From Peptococcaceae bacterium (GTDB lineage Bacteria > Bacillota > Peptococcia > Peptococcales > Peptococcaceae), in contig JAFQEO010000035.1 of the NCBI GenBank assembly GCA_017399005.1, positions 186,001 through 250,000 of the forward strand: a stretch of DNA of 64,000 nucleotides, read 5' to 3'. Shown piece by piece: positions 17,167 through 55,983 of the stretch; the stretch's first letter is position 1; each line of letters starts with the position of its first letter. Under the pieces are notes generated by a model, which worked only from the letters and a program-made list of their open reading frames with translations, did not search any database and was not told the origin of the DNA. Both the position numbers and the translations under genes were made by a program.

Positions 17167-18009
17167 ATGTCCAGTAAATTGACAGAAAGGTTTGATGTAC
17201 AGATGAAAACATTCCAGGAACAACAGGCCATCGTTCGACGTATGAATGTCATCGATGACCAGTTTTTTCAAAAAGTTGCCGAAGATCGGGAAGTATGTGA
17301 GGAACTTCTACAGATACTTCTGGACAAACCCGATTTGCAGATTATTGAAAGCCAGACACAGCGCCCTCTGCGAAATATTCATGCCCGCTCGGTGATTCTG
17401 GATGCACTATGCAGAGATTCAAGCGGAAGCCTCTTTAACATTGAGGTACAGAAAGATGATAAAAAGCGAAAACACTCCAAGGCTGACGAATATCAGAAAC
17501 GGGTGCGTTATAATCTTGCCAGTATGGACACTACCTTTGCTGAAAAAGGTATGGCATTTCATCAGTTGCCCGATTTGTATGCCGTTTTTATTTCTCAGAT
17601 AGACCCCTTTGAGAAACACAAATCTACTTATCACATTCGCAGGTCACTTGAAGAAACGGATACAACTGTGTATAATGGAATACACGAGATTTATGTAAAT
17701 ACTTCCGTTAACGACGGCACACTTATCGCAGAACTGATGCAGTATTTTGAAAACAGCAATGGAATCAATCCTAATTTTGAAAAACTCAGTTACCGTGTAG
17801 AACAATTTAAGGAATCCGAAAAAGGAGTGACATCTATGGCAAGTGTATTTGACGAATATGCAGAGGAATATGCGCAGGAACGGGAAAAGGCTGCTGCTGT
17901 ACGCCTGCTGAAAGAAGGGGTACCGGCTGAAATTATTGTAAAAGCTTTGCCTTCTCTCTCTATTGAAGACATTAAACAGCTGCAGCACGCTGAACTGGCC
18001 GAAGCATAG
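17167..18009 (+). CDS. Rpn/PD-(D/E)XK nuclease family putative transposase
   Basis: 280 residues (or 268 from the ATG at 17203, which has AGAAAGG 12 bases upstream; neither start has an ideal ribosome site). The PD-(D/E)XK core is visible: Asp in VILDALCRD and the E-V-Q-K motif, followed by the typical KRVRYNLASMD region and a charged C-terminal tail (EYAEEYAQEREKAAAVRLLKEG). Relatives are annotated as recombination-promoting nucleases or PD-(D/E)XK family transposases and often occur as dispersed copies. It is the only plus-strand gene in 30 kb and is preceded by the shared 76-bp promoter module. Confidence 0.85.
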   Translation: MSSKLTERFDVQMKTFQEQQAIVRRMNVIDDQFFQKVAEDREVCEELLQILLDKPDLQIIESQTQRPLRNIHARSVILDALCRDSSGSLFNIEVQKDDKKRKHSKADEYQKRVRYNLASMDTTFAEKGMAFHQLPDLYAVFISQIDPFEKHKSTYHIRRSLEETDTTVYNGIHEIYVNTSVNDGTLIAELMQYFENSNGINPNFEKLSYRVEQFKESEKGVTSMASVFDEYAEEYAQEREKAAAVRLLKEGVPAEIIVKALPSLSIEDIKQLQHAELAEA

Positions 18010-48551: not shown

Positions 48552-50159
48552 ATGAAAATTGCGTTTTATGGAGCTGCCCACGAAGTGACAGGTTCCTGTA
48601 CTATTATTTATGCAAACGGCAAAACCATTCTGGTAGACTGCGGCCTGGAACAGGGCCCGGATATTTATGAAAACTGTACCCTGCCTTTTGCACCTTCTCA
48701 GATTGACTATGTGCTTTTAACCCATGCCCATATCGACCACTCTGGTAAAATTCCATCGCTGACAGCCGGCGGCTTCCGCGGCAAAATCTATACAACCGAA
48801 GCAACCGTGAAATTGTGCAATATCATGCTGCTGGATTCGGCACACATTCAGGAATCCGAGGCAAAATGGCGCAACCGCCGGGCAAAACGCTCCGGTGCAG
48901 AGCCTTATGTGCCGCTGTATACCACAGAAGATGCCGAGCGCGCTCTGAAACAGTTTGTGCCGTGCCAGTATGAAACCCCTGTCGATTTATGCAAAGGCAT
49001 TCGCGTATCCTTTACCGATGCCGGCCATCTGCTTGGCTCTGCAAGTATCCGCCTTTCTATCACAGAAGGCGGCCACACAGAAACCATTGTATTCTCCGGA
49101 GACCTGGGCAACTACGACCGCCCTCTGATTAACGATCCGAAAAATCCGAAAGACGCCGACTATGTGGTTATCGAATCCACCTACGGAAACCGGCTGCATG
49201 GCGAACGGCCCGATTATGTAAGCCAGCTGACCCGCATTCTGCAGGAAACTTTTGACCGGGGCGGCAATGTGGTAATTCCTTCTTTTGCAATTGGCCGTAC
49301 GCAGGAGCTTTTATATCTGTTCCGCATCATCAAGGAACAGAAACTGATTCACGGGCACGAAAACTTCCCGGTTTATGTAGACAGCCCGCTGGCCGTAGAG
49401 GCTACCGAAATCTACAGCAGCAACCTGACAGCCTTTTTTGACCAGGAAACACTGGATTTACTGGCGCAGGGCATCAACCCGATTAAATTCCCGGGGCTTA
49501 CCTTATCTATCTCCAGCGATGACTCCATGCTCATTAATCTGGATAAAACACCAAAGGTTATCCTTTCTGCCAGCGGTATGTGTGAAGCAGGCCGAATCCG
49601 CCATCATTTAAAACACAACCTCTGGCGAAGAGAATCCACCATCCTCTTTGTAGGTTATCAGGCAGCAGGCACACTGGGCAGTATTATTGTAAACGGTGCG
49701 CCTGAAGTAAAACTGTTTAACGAAACCATTCAGGTTAACGCACAGATTGAACAGCTTGACGGTATCAGCGGTCATGCCGACCGGGATATGCTGTTAAACT
49801 GGCTGAATGCTTTTGAAAAGAAACCGAAAATGGTATTTGTAAACCACGGGCACGACACCGTATGCGATGAATTTGCCCAGATGGTTACCGGACAGCTTGG
49901 CCTCAATGCCACCGCCCCGTACAATGGAGCCGAATATGATTTATTATCCGGCGCTACATTGATTCAGGGCAATACCAAACGCATTGAAAAGAAACCGGTG
50001 GAATGTGCCAAACAGAAAGTCACCCCTGCCTTCCGCGATTTACTGGCAGCAGGCCGCTGGCTCATGGCCATCATCGAAAAATATCGCGACGGCGCCAACA
50101 CCGACCTCAAGAAATTTGCAAAACAGATTATCACCCTGTGCGAAAAATGGGATAAATAA
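48552..50159 (+). CDS. MBL-fold beta-CASP hydrolase (putative RNase)
   Basis: 535 residues. Metal site T-H-A-H-I-D-H (His58, His60, Asp62, His63), GHLLGSASI, FSGDLG; beta-CASP domain with IPSFAIGRTQELLY, SASGMCEAGRIRHHL; RNA-specificity C-terminal part (QLDGISGHADRDML). Relatives process RNA or act on unknown nucleic acids. AGAAGGG precedes the ATG. Its last 27 bp, stop included, recur at 51129-51155 behind the inserted antitoxin/GNAT genes. Confidence 0.92.
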   Translation: MKIAFYGAAHEVTGSCTIIYANGKTILVDCGLEQGPDIYENCTLPFAPSQIDYVLLTHAHIDHSGKIPSLTAGGFRGKIYTTEATVKLCNIMLLDSAHIQESEAKWRNRRAKRSGAEPYVPLYTTEDAERALKQFVPCQYETPVDLCKGIRVSFTDAGHLLGSASIRLSITEGGHTETIVFSGDLGNYDRPLINDPKNPKDADYVVIESTYGNRLHGERPDYVSQLTRILQETFDRGGNVVIPSFAIGRTQELLYLFRIIKEQKLIHGHENFPVYVDSPLAVEATEIYSSNLTAFFDQETLDLLAQGINPIKFPGLTLSISSDDSMLINLDKTPKVILSASGMCEAGRIRHHLKHNLWRRESTILFVGYQAAGTLGSIIVNGAPEVKLFNETIQVNAQIEQLDGISGHADRDMLLNWLNAFEKKPKMVFVNHGHDTVCDEFAQMVTGQLGLNATAPYNGAEYDLLSGATLIQGNTKRIEKKPVECAKQKVTPAFRDLLAAGRWLMAIIEKYRDGANTDLKKFAKQIITLCEKWDK

Positions 50160-50160
50160 A
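50134..50160 (+). repeat. Direct repeat, left copy (3' end of beta-CASP gene)
   Basis: 27 bp identical to 51129-51155 (begins ccctgtgcgaaaaatggg, ends in the stop and an A-run). The two copies bracket the antitoxin/GNAT cassette. Confidence 0.9.
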
Positions 50161-50371: not shown

Positions 50372-50536
50372 ATGGCAACAACATCTATTACAAAAAACTT
50401 TGTAATTCATGATCAGGAAAACTATCTGAAGTTAAAAAAAGAACTGGACAGTCGTCCTGCAAGAACTGTTCGTACCAGTGAAAACTCCTCTCTGAAACGG
50501 GGAAAAGAAAAATTAGCACAATTATCGTGTCGTTAA
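50372..50536 (+). CDS. Putative antitoxin partner of the GNAT protein
   Basis: 54 residues, MATTSITKNFVIHDQENYLK start, Arg/Ser/Lys-rich tail (RTVRTSENSSLKRGKEKLAQ). AAAGGAGGGG is ideally placed before the ATG. Overlaps the next gene by 10 bp, the usual layout of antitoxin-toxin pairs. N-terminal half predicted to be a short DNA-binding or dimerising unit, C-terminal half flexible. Family not recognised with certainty; role inferred from size, overlap and partner. Confidence 0.7.
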   Translation: MATTSITKNFVIHDQENYLKLKKELDSRPARTVRTSENSSLKRGKEKLAQLSCR

Positions 50537-51096
50537 AAGATTTTCTGGACGGAGCCTCTGACGATGCTGAAAAAGCATATCGCATGGAGGCTCTGTTTTC
50601 TTTTCATTGTGTCTTAGACTCTGATATTGAACACTTCCTGCATCATCGCGCCATTGATTTTGATAATCGAGGCTGGTGCAGCGTATATCTTCTTCTAGAC
50701 GAGGCTGCACTTGAAAACAAAAAATATCGTATCCTCGCCTATTTTACACTTTCGCATAAAGCAATGGTTCCGCATACTATCAGCAAATCAAAAATTAAAA
50801 CAGTAACCGGCGGGCTAAAAGAAGCGGACTCCCTGCATTTCGTTCTAATCGGTCAGCTTGGAAAACATATTGAAGAAATGCCGGATGGTTCTTGGAATAT
50901 AGCTTCTGTTCATTTAACAGAAATACTGGATTATGCATTTGAAATCATTGAAGAATCCAGCGCTTTAATTCCGTGCCGCTGCGTTTTAATTGAGTGTGAC
51001 CAGGAACGAACCAAACTACATCAGCTTTACAAAAACTACGGTTTTAAACTTTTACAGCAGGATGACAACCTATTGCAATTTTATAAACCATTATAG
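50527..51096 (+). CDS. GNAT-fold acetyltransferase, putative toxin
   Basis: 189 residues from a GTG that overlaps the end of the antitoxin frame. GNAT-like pattern: strand-rich centre, FVLIGQLGKH (acetyl-CoA loop region) and C-terminal CRCVLIECDQERTKLHQLYK then NYGFKLL, the usual GNAT ending (parts only quoted). With the small upstream gene it resembles GNAT toxin-antitoxin modules that acetylate aminoacyl-tRNA, but it could also be an ordinary acetyltransferase. Bracketed by the 27-bp repeat and AT-richer than its neighbours. Confidence 0.75.
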   Translation: MSLKDFLDGASDDAEKAYRMEALFSFHCVLDSDIEHFLHHRAIDFDNRGWCSVYLLLDEAALENKKYRILAYFTLSHKAMVPHTISKSKIKTVTGGLKEADSLHFVLIGQLGKHIEEMPDGSWNIASVHLTEILDYAFEIIEESSALIPCRCVLIECDQERTKLHQLYKNYGFKLLQQDDNLLQFYKPL

Positions 51097-51128
51097 CCAC
51101 GACTCAAGACCATCATTAAATAAAATCG

Positions 51129-51155
51129 CCCTGTGCGAAAAATGGGATAAATAAA
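51129..51155 (+). repeat. Direct repeat, right copy
   Basis: 27-bp copy of the beta-CASP gene's 3' end, preceded by a diverged further stretch (cgac..caaga) of the same gene end; followed by the hairpin at 51181-51240. Confidence 0.9.
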
Positions 51156-51365: not shown

Positions 51366-52658
51366 ATGAAAAAAAGAACGCAATTTATTGCTTCCCTTGT
51401 CTTATTGACCATACTATTTACATTTGTTTTTCCATTTGCGAATCTGCCTGCATATGCTCAGGATGAACCGATACTCCAGGCAGAAGCCGCTATATTAGTG
51501 GATGCTGTCAGCGGGAAGATTCTTTATGAAAAGAATTCGGAAGCTCTTCTTGGGGTGGCCTCCATGTCAAAAATGATGACAGAATACCTTGTATTAGAAG
51601 CTATTAAATCCGGAAGCATCACCTGGAATCAGAATGTCACCATTGATGAATCTGTGCATAAACTTTCAGAAGTGCCGGGATTATCGAATATTGTCCTGAA
51701 ACAAGGAGAACCTTATACAGTAAAAGAACTTTATGAGGCAATGGCTATCTTTTCCGGCAATGCTGCCGCGGCAGCGCTGGCACAATTAATAGGCGGCACG
51801 GAAAAGGATTTTGTCATCCTGATGAACGAAAAAGCCGCGGAGCTGAATCTGAAAGATTATAAATTTGTCAACGCATCCGGTTTGAACAACTCGGATCTCC
51901 CTTATCCATATCCTGCGGGAGAGCAAAATGATGAAAATCTTATGTCTGCACGTGCCGCTGCCAGACTGGCATATTATTTGCTATCCGATTATCCTGAGGT
52001 TCTGGATACTGCAAAAAAACCATCTCTGCTGTTTAAGGACGGAAAAACATATCCAAATTCCAACTGGATGCTGCCGGGACTGATTGCCGAATACCATGGA
52101 GTTGACGGTTTAAAGACCGGTTATACAGGTTTCGCCGGCAACTGTTTTACTGGAACAGCCGAGCGAAACGGGACAAGATACCTTTCCGTTGTGATGCATG
52201 CAGAAACCAGATTATCACGGTTTTCCGAAACGGAAAAACTTCTGAATTATGCATTTCATAACTTTTCTGCAGAAGAGATTATAGAAAAAGGACATCCGGT
52301 AGCAACAATGTCTGTTCCGAACGGCAAGGAAACCTCTGTAACAGTTGAAACCGATGCTGCACTGAATGTTATCATCAAACAGGGAGAAAAAGAATCTCTT
52401 AAAACAAAACTCGTACTGGATCCCGATATGCTTGATGAAGACGGAAACCTGACTGCACCACTCAATAAAGGCGATAAAGTCGGTTATCTGACGCTTGATT
52501 TCGATAGTTCTGACCCTGGTTTCTTAACTGAAAATGGTGAACAAAGTATTCGTGTAGATGTTGTCGTTAGTGAAACAGTTGAAAAAGCAAACCCGCTCGT
52601 ACTGTGCATACGATTTATTGGAGAGTTTATCAGTAATATCTGGAATCATATCTTTTAA
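51366..52658 (+). CDS. dacF: D-alanyl-D-alanine carboxypeptidase (DacF/PBP5 type)
   Basis: 430 residues. Signal peptide (MKKRTQF, cleavage near AYAQDE), active-site S66-x-x-K69 (SMSK), SGN (130-132), KTG near 250, a C-terminal PBP5-like beta domain and a final amphipathic/hydrophobic helix for membrane binding. Trims the terminal D-Ala of peptidoglycan stem peptides. AAGGAG precedes the ATG. DacF types are often linked with sporulation in this phylum. Confidence 0.93.
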   Translation: MKKRTQFIASLVLLTILFTFVFPFANLPAYAQDEPILQAEAAILVDAVSGKILYEKNSEALLGVASMSKMMTEYLVLEAIKSGSITWNQNVTIDESVHKLSEVPGLSNIVLKQGEPYTVKELYEAMAIFSGNAAAAALAQLIGGTEKDFVILMNEKAAELNLKDYKFVNASGLNNSDLPYPYPAGEQNDENLMSARAAARLAYYLLSDYPEVLDTAKKPSLLFKDGKTYPNSNWMLPGLIAEYHGVDGLKTGYTGFAGNCFTGTAERNGTRYLSVVMHAETRLSRFSETEKLLNYAFHNFSAEEIIEKGHPVATMSVPNGKETSVTVETDAALNVIIKQGEKESLKTKLVLDPDMLDEDGNLTAPLNKGDKVGYLTLDFDSSDPGFLTENGEQSIRVDVVVSETVEKANPLVLCIRFIGEFISNIWNHIF

Positions 52659-52693: not shown

Positions 52694-52729
52694 AAGGCTG
52701 AGATGTTTTTATGCATCTCAGCCTTTGTT
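52694..52729 (+). terminator. dacF terminator (left copy of 36-bp duplicated hairpin)
   Basis: AAGGCTGAGATG / CATCTCAGCCTT stem with T-run. Recurs at 54011-54046 with one loop difference (35 of 36). Confidence 0.9.
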
Positions 52730-52869
52730 ATTTACGGAACCAGTTTGCCTGTAAACTGCATAGCAAATGCTTTGAATTTTCCGGCTGCCGGTGACTGGCA
52801 CAGGTATCATCGGTGGCATACAATATGAATCTTCGACACAACCCGCCAAAACATTACAAAAATGCCCGC

Positions 52870-52898
52870 TTGTAATTAGAATTACAGTACTGTAAAAT
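52870..52898 (+). promoter_or_regulatory. Promoter with two overlapping palindromes (second Rpn gene)
   Basis: TTGTAA (52870-52875), 17-bp spacer, TAAAAT (52893-52898). Palindromes TGTAATT-AG-AATTACA (52871-52886) and TTACAGTACTGTAA (52882-52895) fill the promoter, so a dimeric repressor is likely. Confidence 0.65.
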
Positions 52899-52976
52899 AT
52901 ATACATAGAAATATCTGTATAATTGCGCAATCAGAATTTCTCCTATCTATATTTGCATACAGAAGGGACGATACCC

Positions 52977-53948
52977 GTGGGACAGAAAGACACTCTTACA
53001 AAACAATATATCTCAAACAATACTGTTTTTGCAGATATTTGCAACTATTACATTTATCATGGCAAACCGGTTATTCAGCCGGAACAGCTTCATCCATTAG
53101 ACCCTAGAGAATTTGCTCTGATTCGGAATTCCAATACAACAAAGCATTTATCACCCGTTCAGAAACAGCGTGATGTATTAAAATATATGACAGTAAAAGC
53201 TACCGATACAGCAGCCTACCTGATTATCGGCATTGAAAACCAGAGCGATATTCACTACGCTATGCCAATACGCAATATGCTGTATGATGCACTGCAATAC
53301 GAAAATCAGTTGCAGGAAATTGCGGCAAAACATCGAACTAAAAAAGAGAACAAGAATTTTATATCCGGTTTCCAGAAAACCGATAAATTGCTGCCGGTTA
53401 TTACACTGGTGGCATACTTTGGCACTAAACCATGGGACGGGGCAACCTGTCTGCATGATATGCTGCAGTTTGATGATCCTGCCCTGCTGCACTATGTCGC
53501 AGATTATCCATTACAACTGATTGATCCGCATCAAATGAACGATACTGCACTAAATCAGTTAACCAGCAGTGCAAGAGAAGTATTCAGCTTTATCAAATAT
53601 GCAAATGATAAAAACAGACTGCAGGAATTACTTCAGAAACCACATTATCAGGCATTGGATCCGCTGGCAGCGGAAGTAATTAATGTTTGTACCAGTGCAG
53701 GGCTGACACTGCAAGCCAGAGACAAGGAGGATGTTAACATGTGTAAAGCAATAGATGAAATGCGTGAAGAAAGCCATGCCAACGGTCTTAGAGAAGGGCT
53801 CACGGAAGGCCGTAATGAAAGAAGCAAAGAAATGGCTGTAGCATTGTTGAAAGAAAAAATATTTTCCAGCGAGAAAATTGCCAATCTGACGCAACTCACC
53901 GTACAGGAAATTGAACAGCTGAAGGAACAGCTTACAGCTCATAATTAA
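52977..53948 (+). CDS. Rpn-family recombination-promoting nuclease/putative transposase
   Basis: 323 residues from a GTG with AAGGGA eight bases upstream (frame open to 52923). Rpn pattern: KQYISNNTVFADICNYYIYHG start, nuclease core D..YLIIGIENQSD..MPIRNMLYDALQY (parts), middle domain PVITLVAYFGTKPWDG and a helical tail with EGLTEGRNE. Relatives stimulate RecA-independent recombination. Unlike the nuclease at 17167 it has E-N-Q rather than E-V-Q-K. Flanked by duplicated terminators behind dacF. Confidence 0.88.
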   Translation: MGQKDTLTKQYISNNTVFADICNYYIYHGKPVIQPEQLHPLDPREFALIRNSNTTKHLSPVQKQRDVLKYMTVKATDTAAYLIIGIENQSDIHYAMPIRNMLYDALQYENQLQEIAAKHRTKKENKNFISGFQKTDKLLPVITLVAYFGTKPWDGATCLHDMLQFDDPALLHYVADYPLQLIDPHQMNDTALNQLTSSAREVFSFIKYANDKNRLQELLQKPHYQALDPLAAEVINVCTSAGLTLQARDKEDVNMCKAIDEMREESHANGLREGLTEGRNERSKEMAVALLKEKIFSSEKIANLTQLTVQEIEQLKEQLTAHN

Positions 53949-54010
53949 CCGTTCAAAATTGTTCATACGGCAGCAGATCATAAGAAAAATATAACCGTAC
54001 TCTACACAAA

Positions 54011-54046
54011 AAGGCTGAGATGTTTTTACGCATCTCAGCCTTTGTT
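54011..54046. terminator. Bidirectional terminator (right copy of 36-bp duplicated hairpin)
   Basis: Same 12-bp stem as 52694-52729, between the Rpn gene and convergent thrS. Confidence 0.9.
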
Positions 54047-54075: not shown

Positions 54076-55983
54076 TTATCTTCTTTCTTTAATTTCCAGA
54101 GCCAGGTCTGCTACCATCTGGTCTACCGGTACTGCACCCAGGTCGCCTTCGCCGCGTTTACGCAGGCCTACAGTGCCGCTGGTTGCTTCTTTTTCGCCAA
54201 CTACCAGCATGTAAGGCACTTTCTGCATCTGGGATTCACGGATTTTATAACCGATTTTTTCGTTACGGCTGTCAACTTCTACGCGTACGCCCGCAGCTTC
54301 CAGTTTTGCAGCCACTTCATAAGCATAATCGTTGAATTTATCGGTGATTGGCAGCACTCTTGCCTGTACTGGAGACAGCCAGGTTGGGAATGCACCTGCA
54401 AAGTGTTCGGTTAAGATACCGATGAAACGTTCGATACTGCCGAATACGGTTCTGTGAACCATAACCGGACGATGTTTTTCACCGTCTTCACCGATATAGC
54501 ACATATCGAATTTTTCAGGCATCTGGAAGTCCAGCTGAATGGTACCGCACTGCCATGTACGATCCAGGCAGTCCTGCAGATGGAAGTCAATCTTTGGCCC
54601 ATAGAATGCGCCGTCGCCTTCGTTTACGATGTAATCCATGCCCAGTTCGGTTAATGCATCACGCAGAGCGTCGGTTGCTTTTTCCCACAGTTCGTCGGAA
54701 CCCATGGAATCTTCCGGACGGGTGGACAGTTCTACATGGTAGTTGAAGCCGAAGGTTTTATATACGCTGTCAATCAGTTTGATAACGCCTTTTACTTCTT
54801 CGTTAATCTGTTCCGGCAGCATGAAGATGTGAGCATCGTCCTGTGTAAATGCACGTACACGCATTAAGCCGTGTAACGCACCGGATAATTCATGACGATG
54901 TACCAGACCCAGTTCACTCCAGCGCAGAGGCAGTTCGCGATAGCTGTGTAACTGGCTGTTATACAGCAGAATACCGCCAGGGCAGTTCATTGGTTTGATT
55001 GCAAATGGTTCTTCATCGATTGTGGTGAAGTACATATTTTCCTGATAATGCGCCCAGTGACCGGAACGTTCCCACAGAGTACGGTTCATAATCAGCGGTG
55101 TGCGGATTTCATCGTAGCCTGCTTTTTCGTGCAGTTCACGCCAGAATGCTTCCAGGTTGTTACGCAGTACAATGCCTTTTGGATAGAACAGCGGGAAGCC
55201 TGGAGCTTCGTCTACGAAAGTAAACAGCTGTAATTCCTGCCCCAGTTTACGATGGTCACGGCGTTTTGCTTCTTCCAGTTTGAACAGATGTTCATCCAGG
55301 TCCGCTTTTTTCTGGAAGCAGGTACCGTAAATACGCTGCAGCATTTTATTTTTTTCGCTGCCTCTCCAGTAAGCACCAGCCAGATTTAATAATTTGATTG
55401 CTTTAACAGCACCTGTGCTCACAATATGAGGGCCGGCACACAGGTCGGTAAATTCACCCTGTGTATAGATGCTGATGGTAGCATCTTCCGGCAGGTCGTT
55501 GATTAATTCCACTTTGTATGGTTCACCTTTTTCGGTAAACATAGCGATTGCATCTGCACGGGACAGTTCCTGACGGGTGTAGGTTTCGTCAGCCTGTACA
55601 ATTTTCATCATTTCTGCTTCGATTGCTTCCAGGTCTGCCGGTGTGAATTTGTGTTCGGAATCAAAGTCATAGTAGAAACCGTCTTTGATTGCAGGCCCGA
55701 TACCCAGTTTGGTGCCAGGGAACAGTTTCTGTACAGCCTGAGCCAGAATGTGAGAAGTACTGTGGCGGAAGGTTTCTTTCCCTTCTGCATCGTCAAATGT
55801 GTAAATGCTCAGAGTGGCATCCGCAGTGATTGGCTGGTTTAAGCCCACCATTTCATCATTTACTTTTGCAACGATTGCTTTTTTTGCTAACCCATTGCTG
55901 ATATTTTTTGCTACTTCCAGAGGTGTTACGACATCCTGTTCAAAAGTACGAACAGAACCGTCTGGCAGTGTAATGTGAATCAT
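54076..55983 (-). CDS. thrS: Threonyl-tRNA synthetase
   Basis: 635 residues, full length: TGS domain (1-60), editing domain with HSTSHILAQAV, class II motifs (MNCPGGILLY; RVRAFTQDDAHIF; late FGSIERFIGILTEH) and anticodon-binding C-terminal domain. Charges tRNA-Thr. AAGGAGAG before the ATG. Controlled by the T-box upstream. Confidence 0.98.
   Translation of the reverse strand: MIHITLPDGSVRTFEQDVVTPLEVAKNISNGLAKKAIVAKVNDEMVGLNQPITADATLSIYTFDDAEGKETFRHSTSHILAQAVQKLFPGTKLGIGPAIKDGFYYDFDSEHKFTPADLEAIEAEMMKIVQADETYTRQELSRADAIAMFTEKGEPYKVELINDLPEDATISIYTQGEFTDLCAGPHIVSTGAVKAIKLLNLAGAYWRGSEKNKMLQRIYGTCFQKKADLDEHLFKLEEAKRRDHRKLGQELQLFTFVDEAPGFPLFYPKGIVLRNNLEAFWRELHEKAGYDEIRTPLIMNRTLWERSGHWAHYQENMYFTTIDEEPFAIKPMNCPGGILLYNSQLHSYRELPLRWSELGLVHRHELSGALHGLMRVRAFTQDDAHIFMLPEQINEEVKGVIKLIDSVYKTFGFNYHVELSTRPEDSMGSDELWEKATDALRDALTELGMDYIVNEGDGAFYGPKIDFHLQDCLDRTWQCGTIQLDFQMPEKFDMCYIGEDGEKHRPVMVHRTVFGSIERFIGILTEHFAGAFPTWLSPVQARVLPITDKFNDYAYEVAAKLEAAGVRVEVDSRNEKIGYKIRESQMQKVPYMLVVGEKEATSGTVGLRKRGEGDLGAVPVDQMVADLALEIKERR

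Follow-up and report, generated by a model that had tools for sequence, protein, structure and literature searches.

What is known of rpn genes, and of the routes by which comparable single genes enter chromosomes? Rpn proteins (YhgA-like, PF04754; PMC10327210, PMC5350276) belong to a PD-(D/E)XK-type family with a conserved D..ExQ pattern, and Rpn of E. coli acts as a DNA endonuclease and increases RecA-independent recombination (PMC5350276). The RpnL/RpnS pairs of E. coli are reported to be phage-defense toxin-antitoxin genes-within-genes, in which a strong Shine-Dalgarno (SD) sequence and an in-frame internal start give rise to a small C-terminal protein; rpn genes are reported without target duplications, and there is no evidence for their autonomous transposition (PMC10327210). 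Insertion with a long target duplication of variable length is known for restriction-modification genes, according to the accounts of Nobusato 2000 and Furuta 2010 cited in PMC3031569 and PMC3874152. Finally, integron gene cassettes, each a gene with an attC hairpin, produce a repeated gene-hairpin order.

In the window (the 64,000-nucleotide stretch of a Peptococcaceae genome that was analyzed, whose positions are given below without prefix), an rpn gene lies between a gene for a dacF-like D-alanyl-D-alanine carboxypeptidase (51366..52658, plus strand; PF00768, E 2e-72, with PBP5_C) and the convergent thrS, encoding threonyl-tRNA synthetase (54076..55983, minus strand; TIGR00418, E 4e-223). 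The order is dacF (+), hairpin copy 1 (52694..52729), rpn (+), hairpin copy 2 (54011..54046) and thrS (−), and the direct repeats bound a segment of 1.28 kb (52730..54010, plus strand) that holds a leader, a promoter region and rpn but no terminator, and that runs up to the copied hairpin. We propose, with a probability of roughly 0.6, that rpn is a defense-type nuclease gene with an internal antitoxin that was captured at the bidirectional terminator between dacF and thrS, and that the 36-bp terminator was duplicated around the insert. The exactness of the duplication, the rarity of the hairpin and its ownership by thrS are established observations, and from these and the parallel cases below we infer that rpn came in by insertion with duplication of a long target of variable length, and not through Rpn-mediated transposition.

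The original prediction described a hairpin of 36 bp, identical at 35 positions and changed only in the loop, behind dacF and again behind rpn, and both coordinates and alignment agree with it. The copies form a direct repeat of exactly 36 bp whose identity ends at both edges of the core and whose sole mismatch is a T/C in the loop; measured over 39 bp, the repeat is 94.9% identical (E 1.6e-9 in a 107-kb self-search). Both copies fold strongly (−22 to −25 kcal/mol, z −6 to −9) and score as terminators. Throughout the 2.4-Mb genome, the stem with three or fewer mismatches occurs only at these two copies and at one chance-like site with three mismatches, and the possibility that the hairpin is a frequent genomic terminator is therefore rejected, as the original prediction needed it to be. 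A relaxed form of the hairpin, AAGGCTGRGA...TCTCAGCCTT, is present just three times among eight genomes from the genus: at both window copies and directly behind the thrS gene of a relative, G001, whose ThrS protein is 97% identical to that of the window and which has no Rpn beside thrS. Because the hairpin is otherwise found only right behind this Rpn-free thrS, copy 2 is, as judged by sequence comparison, the native terminator of thrS, now also serving rpn, and copy 1 on the dacF side is the presumed duplicate, with its T-tract kept on the minus strand. Read in the thrS sense, copy 1 retains the tail CAGCCTTGTTTTTTAT, near the CAGCCTTGTTTTTAT of G001, and copy 2 enters the insert after CAGCCTT; this pattern would fit an insertion beside a duplicated hairpin, although the T-tract is short and functionally constrained. 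Apart from the hairpin copies themselves, no long inverted-repeat pair spans the rpn insert.

Comparison with relatives places rpn in a region that has gained several genes. In G004 and G005, the infC leader and infC come after thrS, which is likely the ancestral order; in G001 and G002, a beta-CASP metallo-hydrolase gene sits between infC and thrS, together with further genes of their own before thrS. Relative to its kin, the present genome has added a two-gene module, dacF and rpn between infC and thrS, and the thrS-side gap is, by these gene orders, a growth point for gene gain. The simplest history offered by the original prediction, a convergent dacF-terminator-thrS arrangement followed by insertion, stands in part. 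Duplication of the terminator by insertion is supported by the single hairpin of G001, which lacks Rpn, and by target-derived repeats at other insertions; the empty dacF-terminator-thrS site was not found, because dacF is lineage-specific (a close dacF is absent from every searched genome of the genus) and relatives carry thrS-infC or other genes there. Nor did searches via relatives of dacF, of the neighbor of the L115 Rpn gene and of the neighbor of the major facilitator superfamily (MFS) gene, both described below, recover a full empty site.

Is the gene between the hairpins an rpn gene, and does it encode an antitoxin? The predicted RpnL nuclease (52977..53948, plus strand; 323 aa) begins at a GTG preceded by GAAGGG and matches PF04754 with E 8e-9 and 35.8 bits against a cut-off of 21, as the original assignment to Rpn would have it. 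Its score against NCBIfam TIGR01784 (27.3 bits) falls below the cut-off of 52.1, which most other Rpn loci of the genome also miss. In an alignment of 31 homologues, the catalytic-type residue D66 is present in at least 90% and E87, N88 and Q89 are invariant, which parallels the D..ExQ pattern of the E. coli proteins. The predicted model of RpnL has a pLDDT of 85, and a Foldseek search of the Rpn fold returned no significant match, several of the non-significant matches being PD-(D/E)XK nucleases. A structure of P0002 predicted without an alignment (pLDDT 44) was unusable. Within the gene, an SD sequence, AAGGAGG (53724..53730, plus strand), lies 8 nt ahead of an in-frame ATG at 53739, which is the candidate start of an intragenic RpnS antitoxin (MCKAIDEM..., about 69 aa; 53739..53948, plus strand), a layout like that of RpnL/RpnS in E. 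coli. The equivalent MCKA ATG is preceded by an SD at least 5 nt long in 28 of 36 homologues; among other in-frame Met codons, the figure is 24 of 327. Such an internal start in a distant subfamily backs the idea of a gene-within-gene antitoxin. The likeness to E. coli extends to single-gene horizontal gain and to several copies per genome: this rpn is one of about nine Rpn-like loci here, and the "first" Rpn of the window lies at 17167-18009 (PF12784). We also note an orphan RpnS-like short ORF on contig C35 of this genome, G000 (C35:268353-268607); at its start, 85 bp match the Rpn locus of contig C8 at 99% identity.

A second repeat-flanked insertion lies 1.5 kb upstream of rpn. A 31-bp sequence from the end of the beta-CASP gene (48552..50159, plus strand) occurs twice by self-search, once as the true 3′ end of the gene (50130..50160) and again at 51125..51155, where the native beta-CASP terminator comes next, and between them is the two-gene module (50372..51096, plus strand) encoding a 54-aa small protein and a 189-aa acetyltransferase-like protein. 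G001 and G002 have a single beta-CASP 3′ end, which in G001 is directly followed by the beta-CASP terminator. The unduplicated site is thus clean for this module only; for rpn, the single homologous terminator behind G001 thrS stands without Rpn, but dacF is absent. The module has no Pfam match, and its plasmid relatives are 34% identical, one of them annotated as an acetyltransferase behind a 58-aa ORF; from layout and relatives, we regard it as putatively toxin-antitoxin-like.

Do other rpn genes lie between duplicated hairpins, as the original prediction anticipated? One further copy in the same genome does: the L115 Rpn gene (contig C37, L115:3560-4664), likewise situated between facing genes, is flanked by an intact and a decayed copy (42 bp, 83%) of another terminator hairpin. 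The closest relative of the window rpn, a decayed gene in G001 (contig C9, L122:6378-7202) that has its own terminator-like hairpin, is instead flanked by copies, 138-143 bp long, of the beginning of the neighboring pgi gene. The two hairpin-flanked Rpn genes of the genome have unrelated hairpins, and the notion that the hairpin is a part carried by Rpn genes was rejected. Repeats at three other loci (L061, L080 and L089) proved to be tandem Rpn paralogues and not insertion scars. Neither the terminal inverted repeats nor the fixed-length target duplication of a transposon or IS is found, the repeats running from 31 to 143 bp; because their lengths differ between cases, they are not a fixed transposase footprint.

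How unusual are such repeats? When 400-bp flanks were compared at a score threshold of 46, flank-to-flank similarity was high for 3 of the 13 genus Rpn loci versus 3 of 297 control ORFs drawn from about 0.53 Mb of the genome surveyed as stretches (p 0.001, post hoc); without the window locus, the post hoc value is p 0.013. One of the three high-scoring control ORFs is the two-gene module. The remaining 10 of the 13 Rpn loci have no such repeats; most distant Rpn loci have none, with repeats there only from tandem paralogues; and none of the five rpn genes of E. coli K-12, rpnA-E, has flanking repeats. The idea that repeats accompany every gene gain was likewise rejected, since most other gains examined lack them, among them dacF, beta-CASP, a sigma factor and a permease (gains including those in G001 and G002).

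Repeated hairpins were also seen around other genes. An MFS transporter gene (C35:141798-143158) sits between two identical 29-bp terminators and, because this gene is an ordinary one, terminator pairs can arise around genes other than rpn; a hairpin similar to the one flanking it comes after an Rpn fragment in G001 (L121:7067). Two short loci (C35:173325-174061 and 252028-252524) lie between repeated terminator-like hairpins, and by eye we take them to resemble type I toxin loci that encode very small hydrophobic peptides. A 3.6-kb unit of roughly three genes (C35:319734-323453) lies between the copies of a 51-bp direct repeat that includes a hairpin. Type I restriction specificity genes at C35:261206-263817, which carry repeats and enclose a tyrosine-recombinase-like gene, are, by eye, probably a shuffling system. 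Finally, three related leader hairpins (C35:55707, 61189 and 62112), two of them near purC/purB-like genes, are possibly a shared regulatory terminator.

Could the second hairpin have another origin? An Rpn-hairpin-thrS fragment from a related strain might have entered by homologous recombination in thrS and an illegitimate join beside the resident hairpin, and the single differing base of the window hairpins, like the 83-86% identity of the L122 and L115 repeats, is what one would see between donor and resident copies or with age. We consider this course of events unlikely: it presupposes an earlier insertion elsewhere that calls for the same explanation, and the pgi start that the outer copy at L122 most resembles is G001's own, ahead of those of the relatives tested. 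Less likely still is a plain insertion of rpn between dacF and thrS, with the hairpin copied locally afterwards since each gene needs a terminator. Both hairpins look functional, and the MFS gene between identical terminators offers a precedent, but the repeats at the parallel insertions are coding pieces, the 3′ end of beta-CASP and the 5′ end of pgi, and a need for terminators therefore cannot explain their copying.

The original prediction further suggested that Rpn might have a part in its own spread, for example if the nuclease made a staggered cut in the hairpin and so promoted its own insertion. The endonuclease activity and stimulation of recombination described in E. coli (PMC5350276) speak for such a role, as does the presence of two Rpn genes of this genome within duplicated terminators between facing genes. 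Nevertheless, we hold it to be very improbable, and the suggestion is not borne out: the neighboring module, which has no Rpn, bears the same scar and none is seen at rpnA-E of E. coli K-12, two findings that argue against Rpn-driven spread; the repeat lengths vary over the range given above; and the literature describes no autonomous transposition (PMC10327210). The scar points to a general entry route of small mobile genes and not to a power of Rpn.

For capture at the terminator, the reading that we prefer, we propose the following sequence of events. Foreign DNA was probably joined at a staggered or cruciform-cut break in the terminator, and filling in of the break would have copied the 36-bp terminator to either side of the insert; arriving without a terminator, rpn would use the copied hairpin. 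Toxin addiction may then keep such repeat-flanked and easily lost insertions in place, and we hypothesize that, as direct repeats favor precise loss, addictive cargo is over-represented among the survivors. A broader version, in which cruciform or staggered cuts at terminators between facing genes admit small toxin or defense genes, duplicate the hairpin and let rpn and toxin-antitoxin-like genes accumulate because addictive cargo blocks loss, is speculative and, in our judgment, improbable.

Set against the described systems, the locus differs from E. coli rpn, for which target-site duplications are neither reported nor found here, in that such duplications are present at the window gene and at two relatives within the genus. 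The resemblance to integron cassettes is superficial: the gene-hairpin-gene-hairpin order is shared, but there is no integrase at the locus, the hairpins are locus-specific 36-bp terminators and not attC sites, and the repeats of the parallel cases are not hairpins. With the insertion of restriction-modification genes, as PMC3031569 and PMC3874152 recount it, the locus shares a single toxin-like nuclease unit, the lack of an IS or integrase between the repeats, and a direct repeat of local sequence that is variable in length, 31-143 bp here versus on the order of 100 bp in those accounts. The differences from that mode lie in the cargo, which here is Rpn or a two-gene acetyltransferase-like module, and in the target, which in two cases is a terminator hairpin. 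The mode known from restriction-modification genes thus probably extends to rpn and to a toxin-antitoxin-like module.

These observations bear on the movement of single defense genes, rpn among them, in the absence of a transposase, and they tie rpn and a toxin-antitoxin-like module to an insertion mode known from restriction-modification genes. A genus with several repeat-flanked insertions of differing age provides concrete junctions at which both the insertion and the loss of such genes can be studied.
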